From: a virus
Strand: one strand, 5' to 3'
DNA: 34,366 nt
IMG/VR virus record: IMGVR_UViG_3300028392_000179
Location: 1-34,366 of that record
A model generated the notes under the pieces. It was not told the origin of the DNA. It did no database searches and saw nothing but the letters and a program-made list of their open reading frames with translations. Shown here piece after piece: positions 714 through 33,903 of this stretch. The position numbers were made by a program, and so were the translations under genes. Numbering within the stretch: position 1 is the first letter of the stretch; every line of letters starts with the position of its first letter.

Positions 714-3242
714 GTGGGATTTTTTGTAAAGAAATCTAATACGGGTTCATCCGATTGGGCAAATGCCACAAGCATATATGTCAAAGTTTCCACGGGCTGG
801 ACAGCAATAAAAAAAGGTTTTATAAAAGTTTCAGGTGGCTGGCAACAGTTTTATCCAAATGCTGGTCCATATACAACCGCATCTCCATTTATTTCTTCAA
901 ATACTAGTGGAGCTAGTCCCTGGGGTGCGGGAATTTTATTTGGTAGTTCTGCATATGGTCAAAGAGGAACTTGGGTAGCAAATAGCAGTTCGGCAACAAT
1001 TACATCTTATTCATATCAAATACTTACATCAACTTCTTCCACACCTGGCTCTGGACCATATGTTACAGTTGTAGGATCAACTACTTTAAGTGGAACATAT
1101 CAAACAATAGATTTAACTAACTCAGCATATGATGATGCATTTTTAATTTTTAGAGTTACCGCCACTAGATCAGATAGTGTTACTGGTGTTGATGATACTG
1201 ATAGTCAGGCGGGAACTACCAGACAATACTTTATCTATAGAAATATACCAGTAATTAATACAGGATCTTCTTTAACAAAAGGTGCTAATGATAATATTCT
1301 TACATATAGTTCAACTTGGGATACTTCTACTGGCGGTGTGCCAGATATAACAAGATCTACAGTTCAAATTTATAGAAATACAACAAGTGCAACAACAGGT
1401 GGAACACTGGTATCCACCAGCAGTTGGAATTCATCAGTAATGTCAGGCCCAACTTCTTATGCATCAAGTACATCTTATGCAACTACCGCAACTTATGATG
1501 CAGGATCAGACCCAACTAATAATGCAGGTAAATATTTTTATGCGGTAGAAACACAGTATAACTCTGGCACTGATTATAATGGTGGAACATTTGTACCCGC
1601 TCCAGTTACAAATACAAAAACTTATGGTCCTATAACATTATTGACTGCTCCAGGTTCATTTACTTATTCTATTTCAGATTCAACAGCAACCCCAGCCTGG
1701 ACAACATCTCCAAATATAAGTTTATCTGGAGATACAAGTAATTTTTTAACAGTAACTTGGGGAACAGCTTCTCCAGTAAGTGCTTATTTTATTACTCTTT
1801 CAGGATCGCCAGTAACTATTGCAAGAACTGGTAATGGAACAAGTACGACATATATGACTTATTATTATGCCTCGGGTACAGAAACTGCAACAATAGATGT
1901 AGAAAATAATAATACTTATTGCACTATTACAATTCCTACTGCTGCAACAAATGCTACACGTTATGTTTATGATTATAGTGATGGTACTACAAGAACTACT
2001 GCAAGTACCAGCGCAACTTCATATAGGTTTCAAGTACCAAATGGAAACACGGCCACTGTATATAGCGTAAAAGCTTATAATGGTCCTAATACAACATCGC
2101 CATCAACAACTGGTACGCCACCCGCTACTACAACAAATAAACCAGTAACACAATCAATAACTGCAAGCAATTCTTCTATATTAACTTATGGCATAGCACC
2201 ATCAAATACTAGTGTTCCAGTTATTTCTCCAGCAGGTGGATATGTAAATACTGTTTATAGTTGTTCCACGGGATCTTGGAGTGGTAGTGCAACAATAACA
2301 TATTCTTATCAATGGCAAGCATATAACAGTTCAACATTTGGCTGGGATAATTTAACTGGTGGAACTTCAAGCACTTATACACCAACTTTTGCCATGAATC
2401 CTGGTTTACGTTGTGTTGTTACTGGGTCAAATGCTTATGGTTCATCTTCAGCTAATGCTACTTCAGTTAATATAAGCTCATATCCATCACCTTCAATTGT
2501 TACGGCACCTTCAGCCACACCTTCAAGCGGTTATTTGGGAATCACTTCATTTACTTCAACATCAGGAACTTGGAACTACGCATCATCTTATTCATATCAA
2601 TGGCAATACTATGATACCGTTACCTCTTCTTGGTTAAATCGTAGCGATACTGGAGCAACCACATCTTCTTACACACCTCAAATAACTGGAAGTTTTAGAT
2701 GTCTTGTTACGGCGTCGGGAACTGGTGGTTCAACTTCTGCAGCATCAAATGCCGTTACCGTAACTTCATATCCAGTACCAGTAAATACTGTTGCACCTTC
2801 AGTTACACCTACAAGTGGAACAACTAGCACATCATTTAGTTGTTCTACGGGAACTTGGACAAATTCACCAACATCTTATTCATATCAATGGCAATACTAT
2901 AATACCGTTACCAGTAATTGGACAGATCGTTCTGGAGCAACCTCTAGTAGTTATACACTCACTTTTAGTGGAAGTTTGCGATGTCAAGTTAAAGCAACAA
3001 ACACGGGTGGTACGTCAAGTGCTGCAACTTCAAATGCCGTTACTGTGAGTTCAACCCCTACACCAACCCCTACACCAACCCCTACACCAACCCCTACACC
3101 AACCCCTACACCAACCCCTACACCAACCCCTACACCAACCCCTACACCAACCCCTACACCAACCGCTCCAAGTTCATGTTGTACAACAGGTTCTTGCGGT
3201 GGTGGAAGCCTTTGTAGTGGCCGTTGCTTGTGTAATGGATAA
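714..3242 (+). CDS. Ig-like/FN3-like phage adhesin with Thr-Pro stalk and Cys-rich C-terminus
   Basis: An 842-residue protein starting at GTG, with the SD-like AAGGATAA just upstream. Residues ~1-50 (WANATSIYVKVSTGW, IKKGFIKVSGGWQQF) carry short repeats seen at the N-terminus of phage tail proteins. Residues ~60-780 are beta-rich and Ser/Thr-rich, with at least three Ig-like modules marked by the recurring YSYQWQ strand at ~96-residue spacing; each module carries a CS or RC Cys pair. Residues ~781-818 are an uninterrupted Thr-Pro repeat. The last ~21 residues hold six Cys and many Gly. There is no signal peptide, as expected for a virion protein. The likely role is a tail fibre or capsid-attached adhesin binding host surface glycans. 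Adjacent sugar-modification genes suggest it may be modified. Confidence 0.75.
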   Translation: MGFFVKKSNTGSSDWANATSIYVKVSTGWTAIKKGFIKVSGGWQQFYPNAGPYTTASPFISSNTSGASPWGAGILFGSSAYGQRGTWVANSSSATITSYSYQILTSTSSTPGSGPYVTVVGSTTLSGTYQTIDLTNSAYDDAFLIFRVTATRSDSVTGVDDTDSQAGTTRQYFIYRNIPVINTGSSLTKGANDNILTYSSTWDTSTGGVPDITRSTVQIYRNTTSATTGGTLVSTSSWNSSVMSGPTSYASSTSYATTATYDAGSDPTNNAGKYFYAVETQYNSGTDYNGGTFVPAPVTNTKTYGPITLLTAPGSFTYSISDSTATPAWTTSPNISLSGDTSNFLTVTWGTASPVSAYFITLSGSPVTIARTGNGTSTTYMTYYYASGTETATIDVENNNTYCTITIPTAATNATRYVYDYSDGTTRTTASTSATSYRFQVPNGNTATVYSVKAYNGPNTTSPSTTGTPPATTTNKPVTQSITASNSSILTYGIAPSNTSVPVISPAGGYVNTVYSCSTGSWSGSATITYSYQWQAYNSSTFGWDNLTGGTSSTYTPTFAMNPGLRCVVTGSNAYGSSSANATSVNISSYPSPSIVTAPSATPSSGYLGITSFTSTSGTWNYASSYSYQWQYYDTVTSSWLNRSDTGATTSSYTPQITGSFRCLVTASGTGGSTSAASNAVTVTSYPVPVNTVAPSVTPTSGTTSTSFSCSTGTWTNSPTSYSYQWQYYNTVTSNWTDRSGATSSSYTLTFSGSLRCQVKATNTGGTSSAATSNAVTVSSTPTPTPTPTPTPTPTPTPTPTPTPTPTPTPTPTPTPTAPSSCCTTGSCGGGSLCSGRCLCNG
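2584..2912 (+). repeat. Duplicated Ig-like module boundary (288-bp offset)
   Basis: About 41 bases beginning at 2584 recur at 2872 with a single visible substitution (G versus A in the Asp/Asn codon of YYD or YYN T). The offset is 288 bp, or 96 codons, which equals one Ig-like module. A more diverged copy of the YSYQWQ strand lies near 2299. This points to recent in-frame duplication or gene conversion of an adhesin module. Confidence 0.8.
3053..3160 (+). repeat. Nine perfect 12-bp tandem repeats encoding Thr-Pro-Thr-Pro
   Basis: The unit AACCCCTACACC is repeated nine times without a mismatch and followed by a degenerate tenth copy. In the adhesin frame each unit encodes TPTP. The unit is a multiple of three, so slippage would change stalk length rather than switch the gene off. 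The C-rich top strand contrasts sharply with the AT-rich surroundings. Confidence 0.95.
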
Positions 3243-8219: not shown

Positions 8220-9662
8220 ATGAAAATATTGGGGTATAACGAAACATCACACGATGCTGCTATGGCATTAATTGACGATGAAAAAATACTGTTTGCTGGT
8301 CATGCTGAAAGATATAGTAAGAAGAAGAATGATTGGTATAACAATGATGAAATAATTACTGATCTTTATTCTTATGGAACTCCAGACGCTGTAGCATATT
8401 ATGAAAAATCTAATTTAAAACGATTAAGAATTAAATTGCGTGGGGGTGCTTCGGACTGGAAACCTCTTTGGTCAGTATCAAAAGTAAAAGAATTTAAGCA
8501 TCATTACTCGCATGCAGCAGCAGGGTATTACACAAGTCAATTTGATGATGCTGTGATAGTAGTTCTGGATGCCATTGGTGAATTCAATACTTCAACTGTT
8601 TGGGTCGGGGAGGAAGATAAAATCTCCTTGGTAAGTAAAAAAAATTATCCGTTTAGCTTTGGTTTGTTTTATTCAGCATTTACTCAGCTTATCGGACTTA
8701 TGCCAAATCAAGAAGAGTATATTATGATGGGTATGGCTGCATATGGAAATCCAAATAAATACTTTGATAAAGTAAACAAGTACTTTCCTAGTTTTAAAAA
8801 GCAAAGAAAAAATTTTCATAGTGGTATTAATAATTGGAATCTAAAAATTACAGAGCAAGATAAGTTTGATATTGCAGCATCAGTTCAAAAAGTTTATGAA
8901 AAAAGATTAATGGAATTTATGCATAATGTAAAGTGGAAAACAAAAAAGAATAAATTAGTTTTTATGGGCGGTTGTGCTTTAAACTGTTCTGCAAACACAA
9001 GACTTTGGGAAGTTTTTCATGATATTTGGATTATGCCAAACCCAGGAGATGCAGGCTCTAGTCTTGGGGCAGCTTTAGCATTAAGAGGAAAACATATTAA
9101 GTGGGAAGGCCCGTACCTTGGATACGACTTAGGAAATGATTATCCAGTTGAAGAAATATTAGATCAACTTGTCAGTAAAGGTGTAGCACCAGTTGCAGCG
9201 GGACGTGCAGAATTTGGGCCTAGAGCTTTTGGAAACAGAAGTATATTGGCTGATCCAACAGATATTAGAATAAAAGATAAAGTAAATAAAATTAAACAAA
9301 GAGAACTTTTTAGACCTTTTGCTCCAGTAGTTATGGAAGAACATGCAAATGAATGGTTTGATATGCCAAGGGGTAAGCCAACCCCATATATGCAATATGC
9401 GGTAAAATGTTTAAAGCCAGATTTAATTCCAGCGGTTGTTCATAAAGATGGAACCTCAAGAGTTCAAACGGTAAATAAAGATCAACACCCAGGTTTGTAT
9501 GCTGTGCTTTCTGAATGGTATAAACTAACAGGCGTTCCAGTTCTTTTAAATACTAGTTTAAACATAAAAGGGCAACCATTATTAAATGATGAGTCTGATA
9601 TAAAATTGTGGAATAAAGTGTATAATAGTACAATAATCACTGGCAGCAAAAAAAATAAATAA
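8220..9662 (+). CDS. Carbamoyltransferase, NodU/TobZ/CmcH type
   Basis: A 480-residue protein, slightly shorter than cellular members (~550-600). It has both family domains. The N-terminal Kae1-like ATPase part begins MKILGYNETSHDAA, has the metal/substrate His cluster HHYSHAA with H94, H95 and H98, and contains GGCALNCSANTRLW and the PNPGDAGSSLGAA phosphate loop. The C-terminal domain contains FGPRAFGNRSILADP, RPFAPVVMEEHA and LLNTSLNIKGQPL. These enzymes activate carbamoyl phosphate with ATP and transfer carbamoyl to a hydroxyl of a sugar, antibiotic or nucleoside. With sugar enzymes on the same strand immediately upstream, glycan carbamoylation is the simplest role; carbamoylation of a modified base cannot be excluded. 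Confidence 0.9.
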   Translation: MKILGYNETSHDAAMALIDDEKILFAGHAERYSKKKNDWYNNDEIITDLYSYGTPDAVAYYEKSNLKRLRIKLRGGASDWKPLWSVSKVKEFKHHYSHAAAGYYTSQFDDAVIVVLDAIGEFNTSTVWVGEEDKISLVSKKNYPFSFGLFYSAFTQLIGLMPNQEEYIMMGMAAYGNPNKYFDKVNKYFPSFKKQRKNFHSGINNWNLKITEQDKFDIAASVQKVYEKRLMEFMHNVKWKTKKNKLVFMGGCALNCSANTRLWEVFHDIWIMPNPGDAGSSLGAALALRGKHIKWEGPYLGYDLGNDYPVEEILDQLVSKGVAPVAAGRAEFGPRAFGNRSILADPTDIRIKDKVNKIKQRELFRPFAPVVMEEHANEWFDMPRGKPTPYMQYAVKCLKPDLIPAVVHKDGTSRVQTVNKDQHPGLYAVLSEWYKLTGVPVLLNTSLNIKGQPLLNDESDIKLWNKVYNSTIITGSKKNK

Positions 9663-11026: not shown

Positions 11027-11052
11027 CAAAAAATAACATAATGCGATACAAT
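11023..11052 (+). promoter_or_regulatory. Promoter for the phosphoesterase gene
   Basis: A perfect TTGACA at 11023-11028 and TACAAT at 11047-11052 are 18 bases apart. A short CCC-N7-GGG inverted repeat lies between the start site and the SD at about 11060-11072. The gene at 11079 follows. Confidence 0.75.
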
Positions 11053-27578: not shown

Positions 27579-28098
27579 AGAAATAGAAGTTGCAGGTCAA
27601 TTTGACCAAATGAATAAAGTTGTTGAAGAATTGCTTAAAGGCAATACACCAACACAAATAGCACGTTCTTTAGATCTTACCCGTGTTCAAGTAGAAACTT
27701 ATATTGACGCATGGAAAGGTTTTGTTCATGACAATACAGCAATTCGTGAACGTGCAAAAGAAGCTTTGGCAGGGGCAGATGAGCATTACAATATGTTAAT
27801 AAAAGAGGCGTGGATCACTTTAAGTCAAGCAGATGCACAAGATTCTCCCAATATTAAAGCGCAAGTTATTAAATTAATTGCTGACATTGAAGCAAAAAGA
27901 ATTGATATGTTAAATAAAGCGGGAGTGCTAGAAGATAGTTCAATGGCAGATCAAATTTTAGAATCAGAAAGAAAACAAGATATTTTAGTAGGCATTCTTA
28001 AAGATGTAACTTCATCTTGTGATAAATGTAAATGGGAAGTTTCAAAAAGATTATCGCAAGTAACAGGCCAGATTGAAGCAGTAATAGTAAATGACTGA
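27571..28098 (+). CDS. Terminase small subunit-like protein
   Basis: A 175-residue protein, ATG at 27571 overlapping the FmdB stop; an upstream in-frame ATG is not supported by spacing. The N-terminus has an HTH (VVEELLKGNTPTQIARSLDL, VQVETYIDAWKGF) that would bind the packaging site. The rest is helical with a coiled-coil-like central region and a short CDKC near the C-terminus. It overlaps the large terminase by eight bases. It is somewhat variable in this position, but context makes terminase small subunit likely. Confidence 0.7.
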   Translation: MDKEIEVAGQFDQMNKVVEELLKGNTPTQIARSLDLTRVQVETYIDAWKGFVHDNTAIRERAKEALAGADEHYNMLIKEAWITLSQADAQDSPNIKAQVIKLIADIEAKRIDMLNKAGVLEDSSMADQILESERKQDILVGILKDVTSSCDKCKWEVSKRLSQVTGQIEAVIVND

Positions 28099-29932
28099 TT
28101 TTAGTGCTTTTATAGATGCACTTGAAGGTGATGAATTTTCAGAAAAACCAGCTCCGCTTGAAGAATTTGTAACAAGTAAAGACTATCTTGGTTTACCACC
28201 ACTTTCTATGTATCAATATCAAATGATCAGAGCATCAACACAAATTTATAAACGTGAAACATTACACAAAATCTATGGTGAAATTGAAGGCGAAAAAATT
28301 TGGAAACAAACTTGTTCTGAAGTAATTTTACAACTTGGTAAAGGTTCTGGAAAAGACTATACATCTACAATCGCTTGTGCATATATGGTGCATTTACTTT
28401 TATGTCTTTCAGATCCAGCAAGATATTATGGAAAACCTCCAGGGGATGCCATTGATATTATTAATATTGCCATTAACGCTATTCAAGCTAACCGAGTTTT
28501 CTTTAAAGGTTTCAATCAACGCATTGAAAAGTCACCTTGGTTTCAAGGAAAATATATTGCTAAAGCAAATATGGTTGAATTTGATAAATCTGTTACAGTT
28601 CACTCGGGTCACTCAGAAAGAGAAGCTTGGGAAGGATACAACGTTTTAGTTGTTATTCTTGATGAAATTTCAGGATTTGAACTTGAATCAACTTCTGGGC
28701 ATGATCAAGCAAAGACCGCATCTGCAATTTATAAAATGTATCGTGCATCTGTAAATTCTCGTTTTCCAGATTTTGGTAAAGTAATTTTACTTTCTTTTCC
28801 TCGTTTTAAAAATGATTATATTCAACAAAGGTATAACGAAGCGGTAGCAGAAAAAGAAGTCGTGCTTAGACATCATAAATTTAAAGTAGACACAGAACTT
28901 CCAGATGGCACCGAAGGCAATGAATTTGAAATGGAATGGGAAGAAGATCACATTATTTCATATAAAGTTCCAAGAATGTATGCTTTAAAAAGGCCAACAT
29001 GGGAGATCAATCCGACTAGAACTATTGACGATTTTACAATTGACTTTTATACAGACCCTACAGATGCTTTATCTCGTTTTGCTTGCATGCCGCCAGATGC
29101 CACGGATGCTTTTTTTAAAAGCAGAATGGTAATTGAAAAAGCTTTTAGTAATCCTAAATTAAATGTAGATTCATATGGAAGATTTGATGATGATTTTAAA
29201 CCAAAAGAAGATAAAACATATTTTATGCATGTAGACTTAGCACAAAAACATGACCATTGTGCGGTGGCGCTAGCGCATGTAGATGGTTGGGTAACAATGA
29301 AAATTGGAGAACAGTATAAAGAAGCCGCACCTAGAATTATAGTAGATGCAGTAAGATATTGGACTCCAACTGCATCCAAATCTGTTGACTTTACAGAGGT
29401 TAAAGATTATATAACAAGCATAAGAGAGCGCAATTTTAATGTTAAATTAGTTACATTTGACCGATGGAATTCACACGATATGATGCAACAACTTGGGGTA
29501 CATGGCATTAAAACTGAAATTTTATCTGTAGCTAAAAAACACTATGAAGATATGTCTCTTACTTTAACTGAAGAAAGGTTGCTAGGGCCTAAAATTCAAT
29601 TGCTTATAGATGAATTATTGCAGTTACGAATTGTAAAAGATAAGGTAGACCACCCAAGAAAGGGTTCTAAAGACCTTTCAGATGCCGTATGCGGGGCTAT
29701 CTACAATGCTATATCCTTAACACCACCAGACCAAAATAAAGAGGTAGAAATCTATACTTATTCTGGGGTATTTTCGGAGGAGTTGGCAAAATTAAAAGAA
29801 GAATCAGATGCAAGAATGAAAAACACTATTCGCATGCCAGAAAGAAAGGTTATGCCTGAAGATATTAGAGATTTTTTTGATGATGATGACAGTGAATATA
29901 GAGATATAGTTGACAACTTTAAAATATTATAG
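28091..29932 (+). CDS. terL: Terminase large subunit
   Basis: A 613-residue ATPase/nuclease. Walker A-like G83-K-G-S-G-K-D89 (QLGKGSGKDYTS) and Walker B VVILD191E192 give the motor domain; ILLSFPRFKNDYIQ, which contains the coupling motif SFP, follows. The nuclease domain (RNase H-like) shows D382 in MHVDLAQKHDH, DRWNS, and D531 in KDLSDAVCGA. It cuts concatemeric DNA and drives it into the prohead. Protein length fits the family. It ends with a DDDDSEYRD acidic tail. Confidence 0.95.
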   Translation: MTDFSAFIDALEGDEFSEKPAPLEEFVTSKDYLGLPPLSMYQYQMIRASTQIYKRETLHKIYGEIEGEKIWKQTCSEVILQLGKGSGKDYTSTIACAYMVHLLLCLSDPARYYGKPPGDAIDIINIAINAIQANRVFFKGFNQRIEKSPWFQGKYIAKANMVEFDKSVTVHSGHSEREAWEGYNVLVVILDEISGFELESTSGHDQAKTASAIYKMYRASVNSRFPDFGKVILLSFPRFKNDYIQQRYNEAVAEKEVVLRHHKFKVDTELPDGTEGNEFEMEWEEDHIISYKVPRMYALKRPTWEINPTRTIDDFTIDFYTDPTDALSRFACMPPDATDAFFKSRMVIEKAFSNPKLNVDSYGRFDDDFKPKEDKTYFMHVDLAQKHDHCAVALAHVDGWVTMKIGEQYKEAAPRIIVDAVRYWTPTASKSVDFTEVKDYITSIRERNFNVKLVTFDRWNSHDMMQQLGVHGIKTEILSVAKKHYEDMSLTLTEERLLGPKIQLLIDELLQLRIVKDKVDHPRKGSKDLSDAVCGAIYNAISLTPPDQNKEVEIYTYSGVFSEELAKLKEESDARMKNTIRMPERKVMPEDIRDFFDDDDSEYRDIVDNFKIL

Positions 29933-30623: not shown

Positions 30624-30697
30624 GCGGTAGTAGCTTAGTTGGTTAAAGCCCCGAACTCATAATTCGGTAATCGTAGGTTCAAGTCCTACCTCCCGCA
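30624..30697 (+). tRNA. tRNA with CAT anticodon (Met or Ile2)
   Basis: Acceptor GCGGTAG/CTCCCGC with one T-C mismatch; D-stem GCTT/AAGC; anticodon stem CCGAA/TTCGG, loop CTCATAA, anticodon CAT; T-arm GTAGG-TTCAAGT-CCTAC; discriminator A. With lysidine modification it could read AUA; otherwise elongator Met. No encoded CCA. Confidence 0.85.
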
Positions 30698-30700
30698 CAA

Positions 30701-30818
30701 GGCTATATGCAGCACACCTTAGCATGGTATAGTTACATATAACAAGTACCCGCAGCGTAAGAGTTCGGGGAGATAGGGCAGCGTCATTCGGTGCTGGAAT
30801 ATCTGCGTATAGCCCCCA
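30701..30818 (+). ncRNA. Structured RNA between tRNA genes, tRNA-like acceptor end
   Basis: A non-coding stretch starting three bases after one tRNA and ending three bases before the next. The ends pair in a 12-bp helix: 30701-30712 with 30803-30814, one T-G wobble, all else Watson-Crick; the outer seven pairs are GGCTATA/TATAGCC. They are followed by C and then CCA, just like a tRNA discriminator and CCA end. Inside, 30779-30785 pairs with 30790-30796 (CAGCGTC/GGTGCTG, loop ATTC), 30749-30752 with 30766-30769 (CCCG/CGGG), and GTTA/TAAC at 30732-30743. The stretch is visibly more GC-rich than the surroundings. There is no T-loop or D-arm, so it is not an ordinary tRNA. It does not show tmRNA, SRP RNA or RNase P signatures. 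Confidence 0.75.
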
Positions 30819-30821
30819 TTT

Positions 30822-30892
30822 GCGAATATTGCATAGTGGTAGTGCGTAACCTTGCCAAGGTTAATGTGCGAGTTCAATTCTCGCTATTCGCT
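30822..30892 (+). tRNA. tRNA-Gly (GCC anticodon)
   Basis: Acceptor GCGAATA/TATTCGC perfect; D-stem GCAT/GTGC; anticodon stem TAACC/GGTTA, loop TTGCCAA, anticodon GCC; T-arm GCGAG-TTCAATT-CTCGC; discriminator T followed by encoded CCA at 30893-30895. Confidence 0.9.
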
Positions 30893-30901
30893 CCAGTAAT
30901 G

Positions 30902-32517: not shown

Positions 32518-32955
32518 ATGACACATCTAACAACATATAACAATCCATTCACACAAATTCAATCTATTTTTAATGACCCGTTCTTTTTAGGGTTTAATGA
32601 TCAATTTGTAAGATGGGAATCAAATAAAAAAACAACATCCGCATTTCCCCCATACAATGTAAAGAAGGTTGATGAAGACAATTATATTGTTGAATTGGCT
32701 GTTGCGGGATATGATCGTGAAGATCTTGATATTACTGTAGATAAAGATACATTAATTATCAAAAGCGATAGAGAAAATGATGAAAAATCAGATTTTCTAC
32801 ACAAAGGAATTGCAGGACGCAATTTTAAACAGACGTTCACTTTAGGTGAATACATGCTGGTTAAATCTGCTTCACTTGAAAATGGTTTGCTAACCATTAA
32901 AATTGAACGGGAAATACCAGAAGAGCACAAGCCTAGACAAATCAAGATCAAGTAG
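32518..32955 (+). CDS. Small heat-shock protein, Hsp20/IbpA family
   Basis: A 145-residue protein. Residues ~40-140 are the alpha-crystallin domain: PPYNVKKVDEDNYIVELAVAG shown in part as YNVKKVDEDNYIVEL, AGYDREDLDITVDKDTLII, a FKQTFTLGEYM strand and the LENGLLTIKI motif. The N-terminal arm carries NPFTQIQSIFNDPFF, the usual aromatic oligomerisation region. The C-terminus ends PRQIKIK, an (I/V)x(I/V) anchor. It is an ATP-independent holdase. Phages use it presumably to keep host or virion proteins soluble. It has its own promoter and structured leader. Confidence 0.95.
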   Translation: MTHLTTYNNPFTQIQSIFNDPFFLGFNDQFVRWESNKKTTSAFPPYNVKKVDEDNYIVELAVAGYDREDLDITVDKDTLIIKSDRENDEKSDFLHKGIAGRNFKQTFTLGEYMLVKSASLENGLLTIKIEREIPEEHKPRQIKIK

Positions 32956-33167: not shown

Positions 33168-33464
33168 ATGAGCAAATTAATAAATCATGTATCTTTTTAT
33201 ATAGACAAATACCCAGCAAGAATGTCAGGGTATATTTCAGCAATAATTCTTAATGTTTCTCATATGTGGTCCAATTTTCCAATTGGCTTGTTTATTCCAG
33301 TTGCCATGTTGTTCATTATGATGGGTGAGGGAGCACAAAGAAAAGAAGATAAAAAAACTTTAAAAGCTCTTTATACAGAAAACGATAAAGAAAAATCAGA
33401 TTCCGATATAATACTAGAGATGGTGCACTCATTGCATCAAAAAGGTGAAAATAATGGCAAATAA
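33168..33464 (+). CDS. Small two-helix membrane protein
   Basis: A 98-residue protein. Hydrophobic segments at ~20-34 (SGYISAIILNVSHMW) and ~37-53 (FPIGLFIPVAMLFIMMG) are separated by SN and followed by a highly charged cytoplasmic-type tail (RKEDKKTLKALYTENDKEKSD). Two membrane passes with a charged tail is holin-like or inner-membrane accessory architecture, but no family is recognised. The tail overlaps the dps start by 11 bases, so the two are co-transcribed. Confidence 0.5.
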   Translation: MSKLINHVSFYIDKYPARMSGYISAIILNVSHMWSNFPIGLFIPVAMLFIMMGEGAQRKEDKKTLKALYTENDKEKSDSDIILEMVHSLHQKGENNGK

Positions 33465-33903
33465 TGAAAATTTAATTCAAATTTTAAAAGAATTACAATC
33501 AATGGCAATGAAAATGTATGCTCAAGCACACGGTTATCATTGGAATATTAAAGGGCGAGAATTTAAACAAGATCACGCTTTTTTATTAGAAATATATGAA
33601 GATGTATTTGATTCAATTGATACATATGCTGAAAATTTAAAAAAAATTAAAGAAAAATCACCATTTGGACTTGAGCAATTACAACAAAATAGTGCATTGA
33701 AAATCAATGATTCTGCAGATTTAACTTCTGAACAGATGTTTGCTGAGTTAAGCAAAACTAACTTGCAGATTATTGATAAGTTAAAAGATGGCTTTGATAT
33801 TGCAACAGAAGCTAAAGAAAACGGAATTGCTAATTTTTTTGGTGATCGTCAAGATAAACATTCATTTTGGCAATGGCAATTGACAAGCACCCTTAGCGCA
33901 TAG
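33454..33903 (+). CDS. dps: Dps-like ferritin, DNA protection during starvation
   Basis: A 149-residue protein with SD AAAGGTGA just before ATG. The helical ferritin core has H29 (AHGYHWNIKGREF), H41, D56 and E60, which match in spacing the intersubunit ferroxidase residues His51, His63, Asp78 and Glu82 of E. coli Dps. KIKEKSPFGLEQLQQ and SFWQWQLTSTL supply the later helices. The family stores iron, consumes peroxide and binds DNA. In a phage it may protect DNA from oxidative damage. The N-terminal tail is short and not basic, so DNA binding by the tail is doubtful. Confidence 0.9.
   Translation: MANNENLIQILKELQSMAMKMYAQAHGYHWNIKGREFKQDHAFLLEIYEDVFDSIDTYAENLKKIKEKSPFGLEQLQQNSALKINDSADLTSEQMFAELSKTNLQIIDKLKDGFDIATEAKENGIANFFGDRQDKHSFWQWQLTSTLSA

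Follow-up and report, generated by a model that had tools for sequence, protein, structure and literature searches.

A phage RNA family with a covarying closing helix and conserved segments complementary to 23S rRNA around H69-H71

The window analysed in this work is the whole stretch of 34,366 nucleotides of the IMG/VR virus record IMGVR_UViG_3300028392_000179, a 34-kb fragment of DNA from a freshwater phage that encodes a terminase large subunit (TerL) and, downstream of it, an array of tRNA genes. Between the tRNA-Met and tRNA-Gly genes of this array lies a structured RNA of 114 nt closed by a helix, P1 (Table 1). As an earlier note had described from the letters alone, the ends of the element pair over 12 bp and the element is spaced three bases from the tRNA on each side. 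One of the 12 pairs is a G-U; CAA precedes P1 and UUU stands between a CCCA and tRNA-Gly; immediately outside P1 are an A at 30700 and the CCCA at 30815-30818. The element was also said to be more GC-rich than its neighbours, which holds against the AU-rich phage background but not against the adjoining tRNAs (0.50 vs 0.45-0.49). Its minimum free energy of -38.9 kcal/mol (z = -2.7 vs dinucleotide shuffles) is modest taken alone. Elsewhere in the window, the open reading frames at 8220-9662, 32518-32955 and 33445-33903 resemble, by eye, a carbamoyltransferase, an Hsp20-like chaperone and a Dps-like protein, respectively, an unusual cargo for a phage fragment, and 714-3242 encodes a large protein of structural appearance that has a long (PT)n tract and a C-terminal end rich in Cys.

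Table 1. Features of the element and its surroundings (positions in the window).
Feature	Position	Strand	Remarks
TerL, bait for relatives	28091-29932	+	63-66% identical to Streptomyces phages (Stanwilliamsviridae)
tRNA-Met, upstream neighbour	30624-30698	+	discriminator A at 30697; ARAGORN/Rfam
Structured RNA, class A of the family	30701-30814	+	closed by P1; covariance model R1, 130 bits
P1 closing helix, 5' strand, GGCUAUAUGCAG	30701-30712	+	99.1% paired, double changes in 11 of 12 pairs, 19 relatives
CCUUAG	30717-30722	+	complementary to 23S CUAAGG, E. coli 1925-1930
UAUAGUUAC	30728-30736	+	complementary to 23S H69 5' side and loop GUAACUAUA, E. coli 1910-1918; invariant in 19-sequence alignment
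AUAUAA	30737-30742	+	possible small hairpin with core UAUA, GUUACA as loop; predicted in relatives
Internal hairpin with conserved GUAAGAGU motif, variable domain	30749-30769	+	minimum free energy fold, alignment
CAUUCGGUGCUG	30785-30796	+	corresponds to antisense CCAUUCGUGCAG of 23S 1962-1973; family GUGCWG
GGAAU	30796-30800	+	corresponds to antisense AGGAAUUUCG of 23S 1934-1943, which includes UUCCU of H70
P1 closing helix, 3' strand, CUGCGUAUAGCC	30803-30814	+	pairs with 30701-30712, including one G-U
tRNA-Gly, downstream neighbour	30822-30895	+	ARAGORN/Rfam

With TerL as bait, 80 related viral loci were collected and the element was then sought by nhmmer and later by the covariance model R1. 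In most of the TerL-selected loci that reach far enough it was found at the matching place, after TerL and usually in a tRNA array. In an alignment of 19 relatives, chosen by sequence and not by pairing, P1 is almost always paired (Table 1) and holds 49 double-change cells, against at most five when the register is slid by 1-3 columns. For the two internal hairpins, proposed earlier along with P1 as places to look for compensatory changes, the alignment of relatives gave no covariation support. The letters invariant outside P1 in the 19 sequences are CAC, CUU.G, UAUAGUUAC and AUA (30739-30741 in the window), and the conserved sequence as a whole consists of CUUAG...UAUAGUUAC towards the 5' end and of GUGCWG..GGAAU towards the 3' end. 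P1-closed members span ~55 to 145 nt owing to a variable middle domain that is nearly missing in the short members L006 and L105, in which the hairpin corresponding to 30749-30769 is reduced or absent.

The interval 30699-30821 matches no Rfam family at gathering threshold, and at E<=10 both strands of the window gave only the two flanking tRNAs and their antisense artefacts; at gathering, Rfam 15 likewise returned tRNAs only in the window and in 18 loci with other classes. Neither the tRNA model (RF00005, cloverleaf covariance above 29 bits; gathering or E<=10) nor ARAGORN found a match in the interval, and for tmRNA, with its tRNA-like domain and tag reading frame, ARAGORN and Rfam were likewise negative. 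A decayed tRNA or a spacer that folds by chance, an option suggested by the location in a tRNA array, the 12-bp end helix and the CCCA, has a practically negligible probability: the covariation of P1 already refutes it, the conserved core (described below) occurs in at least 120 viral contigs, 12 members have promoters of their own, and the element has no tRNA similarity. Judged by this covariation, by the matching place of the relatives and by these promoters, 30701-30814 is a member of a real RNA family. The novelty claimed for it in the earlier note was upheld, as the family is previously undescribed: it matches nothing in Rfam, has no relative among the cultured phages and is described in none of the open-access papers searched; searches for a natural RNA of this kind found none, and being confined to open-access papers they are weak evidence of absence.

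The core pattern was detected in at least 120 stretches in IMG/VR viral contigs and in one of 84,980 bacterial and archaeal species genomes. This single prokaryotic match (L201, Cellulosilyticum) lacks an evident P1 and seems to be due to chance. Exactly one copy was present in 16 of 20 virus records searched whole, 15 of which had previously been found to carry the core or a variant, and the reversed pattern was absent from all 20. Rows gathered by pattern search cannot support the conservation of that same pattern, and the E-values of R1 are rough, as shown by a false positive inside the TerL gene of L007 (E 1.5e-4). A blastn comparison of the element with 50,697 phage records gave no match, and that of the core alone gave chance-like matches only. 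One candidate, the intergenic GGGGUAGGAUGGUAUAGUUACCCC of Klebsiella phage RCIP0095 (L315, 701-717), has 17 nt in common with the core, lacks CUUAGG and is probably a chance match. Because the TerL of the window is 63-66% identical to that of Streptomyces phages of the Stanwilliamsviridae (Table 1), an actinobacterial host is likely. In the representatives of these phages, Gilson and Faust, which share the TerL-tRNA-HNH synteny, the element was not found with R1. Gilson has a 167-nt gap between two tRNA-Pro genes (L291, 17599-17765) with a helix-closed stretch (GUAGAAGC/GCUUCUAC) that bears no annotation and no core and may represent another RNA occupying this slot.

A near-consensus -35/-10 promoter precedes the element in 12 members. 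The -10 box ends 5-7 nt upstream of P1, and therefore transcription of these members should start at the helix. For the copies within tRNA arrays, excision by RNase P and RNase Z is probable; RNase P is the natural candidate because the 12-bp helix would equal an acceptor plus a T stem. The release by tRNA-processing enzymes put forward in the earlier note is plausible for the array copies, but at least 12 relatives have a promoter of their own and several do not adjoin a tRNA. The further suggestion that the RNA mimics a tRNA end is not supported since neither the encoded CCA nor the tRNA setting is general across the family: CCA follows P1 only in the window, L017 and L022/L025, most members have CCU, and the conserved part is not tRNA-like but complementary to 23S rRNA.

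With the exception of its middle, the family core, CUUAGGAUGKURUAGUUAC, is complementary to 23S GUAACUAUA-acgg-UCCUAAG (E. coli 1910-1929). Among 438 rRNA windows the best predicted duplex of the core fell at 23S ~1891-1940 in 33 of 33 element clusters, with a mean of -25.1 vs -9.3 +/- 2.2 kcal/mol, figures that refer to E. coli 23S rRNA, which may differ from that of the host, and to clusters that share ancestry and hence are not independent draws. The consensus core gives a duplex of -27.9 kcal/mol, beyond the best of 250 shuffles (-23.0). The core of the window itself reaches -22.0 kcal/mol, a value matched by 32 of the 250 shuffles, and this copy is a weak predicted binder in which a C replaces the G after CUUAG; that G, through which the family consensus CUUAGGA extends to 23S 1923-1924, varies in other members too. 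Complementarity conserved beyond chance, as expected of antisense sRNAs, is a property of the family consensus and less so of the copy in the window. The linker between CUUAG and UAUAGUUAC ranges from ~5 to 9 nt and also varies in sequence, as expected if the H69 stem were skipped or looped out. Within the pairing segments, the internal changes seen in TerL-selected members are mostly A-to-G or C-to-U, so that G-U pairs are kept. In mature ribosomes position 1915 is m3-pseudouridine, a modification that would weaken one pair.

Two further segments point to the same neighbourhood. Elements in which the core had been masked were compared with every antisense position of 23S and 16S rRNA (~4,430) at three window lengths, and 23S 1962-1973 ranked first for the flanks at all three; for the bases after the GUGCWG motif, 23S 1934-1941 ranked first among ~4,430 rRNA positions. 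Both stretches adjoin the core target, and the H71 hairpin between them is skipped by the RNA. The maximum for the second motif was 7.52, with 7.39 in the sense-strand 23S control, and because the members are related and this control is nearly equal, the weight of the motif rests mainly on the location of its best site beside the core target. The GGAAU segment is missing from the short members L006 and L105. By sequence comparison, then, the conserved segments are complementary to four neighbouring 23S stretches (1910-1918, 1925-1930, 1934-1943 and 1962-1973) around H69-H71.

The order of the segments differs between two scaffolds. In class A, to which the window copy belongs, it is P1, core, variable domain, GUGCWG-GGAAU, P1'; in class B (L084, L091, L092, L108, L152, L155 and L177), as well as in the single loci L205 and L275, it is P1, GUGC.., core, P1', which is the true order of the antisense strand, and P1 is different and compensating. 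In L091, for example, the sequence reads CAUUCGUG-UGGAAU-ACUUAGGAUGGUGUAGUUAC. Since the same segments sit on two scaffolds, it is the segments that appear to matter. These permuted orders, together with the variable spacing, the compensatory helix changes and the promoters that would start transcription at P1, make it very improbable that the element is a signal at the DNA level, for instance a site for homing or packaging that is related to the sequence of the rRNA gene, in spite of the HNH-like gene that adjoins the array and of the fact that the same 23S stretch is also a target of rDNA homing endonucleases. It is unlikely, although with a better claim to attention, that the conserved segments bind a protein or another phage molecule and that their resemblance to antisense 23S rRNA is a coincidence. 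The pairing is predicted from sequence, the conserved GAGU and AUA motifs have no known rRNA complement, and stable phage RNAs without known function exist (T4 species 1 and 2), all of which would suit such a ligand; against a coincidence stand the consensus duplex that exceeds all 250 shuffles, the two further segments that rank an adjacent 23S stretch first and the retention of the segments while order and scaffold change.

Based on these observations, we favour the reading that the element works by pairing with host 23S rRNA at the H69-H71 site, which we regard as rather probable. P1 would hold the RNA as a closed loop in which two groups of antisense segments are brought side by side, one in which UAUAGUUAC would face the loop of H69 and its 5' side and CUUAG the strand that follows this helix, and another in which GUGCWG and GGAAU would face the two strands that flank the H71 hairpin. 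The RNA would pass over the H69 and H71 stems, as with a target that is already partly folded. A main bridge to the 30S subunit is formed by H69, on the face that H70-H71 also line. Once cut out of a tRNA array by RNase P and RNase Z, or started elsewhere from its own promoter, the RNA could dock onto free or newly made 50S subunits at their subunit-interface face and keep them from forming 70S ribosomes, and in this manner host ribosomes might be taken over or stored during infection. Action on free or nascent 50S in competition with 70S formation is the simplest option for an RNA that pairs at this site on the subunit-interface face; that hindering 70S formation is the specific step is, nevertheless, a tentative proposal. 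We infer binding, accessibility of the site, the step affected and the benefit to the phage, and the chances seem to us evenly balanced that this widespread, single-copy phage RNA family is a natural, scaffolded, multi-segment antisense agent, with two or more circularly permuted architectures, that during infection recognises host 23S H69-H71 and controls the function of the 50S subunit.

The main functional rival is that the RNA pairs with the same 23S segments and shields host ribosomes from cleavage at this site by a defence nuclease, in a way that recalls the tRNA arrays thought to replace cut tRNAs. The mycobacterial toxins MazF-mt6 and MazF-mt3 cleave the UUCCU of 23S helix/loop 70, MazF-mt6 in free 50S only and not in 70S (PMC5408214). 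These enzymes touch the same rRNA neighbourhood as the element but are protein nucleases. A published cutting site restricted to 50S (PMC5408214), the GGAAU of the phage RNA that faces UUCCU, the probable actinobacterial hosts and the location of the element within tRNA arrays are consistent with a shield. However, the best conserved segments face H69 and 1925-1930 and not UUCCU, and two short members lack the GGAAU segment altogether, and we consider this explanation improbable.

To our knowledge, phages control host translation through proteins and tRNAs. If the favoured reading is correct, pairing of an RNA with the functional core of the large subunit would represent a new mode of translation control, would explain a stable RNA other than tRNA inside phage tRNA arrays and would provide a natural counterpart of laboratory antisense agents against rRNA; the role of the extra RNAs of phage tRNA clusters could then be approached with a pairing prediction that is concrete and testable. 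The box C/D and H/ACA guide RNAs of archaea and eukaryotes are also small and pair with rRNA via short segments held by a scaffold. Unlike these, the element belongs to bacterial phages and addresses a target of ~60 nt with hairpins skipped, and by inspection of the alignment its invariant columns show no obvious C/D or H/ACA boxes. According to a review, a synthetic PNA against H69 inhibits the growth of E. coli (Kulik 2017, reviewed in PMC7038079); it has the same rRNA target as the element but is man-made and consists of one segment. GOLLD and ROOL, described as structured RNAs known from lakes and phages (PMC12286853), are far larger than the element and have no Rfam match in the window.

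The nearest RNAs in setting and size are the species 1 and 2 RNAs of phage T4 (rnaC, 139 nt, and rnaD, 119 nt), which are likewise small, stable and located in a tRNA cluster. They differ from the element in having no H69 core and are not homologous by the R1 test, in which the T4 tRNA region (L290) was negative at E<=1. In rnaD (L290, 1054-1172, minus strand), the conserved hairpin loop GUCGCUACC shows complementarity to 23S 1928-1935, beside the target of the family, through a conserved UCGCUACC antisense to that stretch; a second 8-mer match is not conserved. This complementarity is a weak lead only and may hint at the function of the T4 RNA.

A third arrangement, class C, was noticed in many uncultured phages and was excluded from the statistics and not counted as support. 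It is a hairpin with CUUAGG and the loop UAUAGUUAC, placed 3' of a capsid gene and before an intrinsic terminator (L086, minus strand, ~11033-11051; L215, L217, L202, L212 and others), in which CUUAGGA is largely self-paired. The gene in L215 matches a Streptomyces phage major capsid protein, and the stem appears to covary (GACUGU/ACAGUC, GAUUGU/ACAAUC, GGGUGU/AUACCC).
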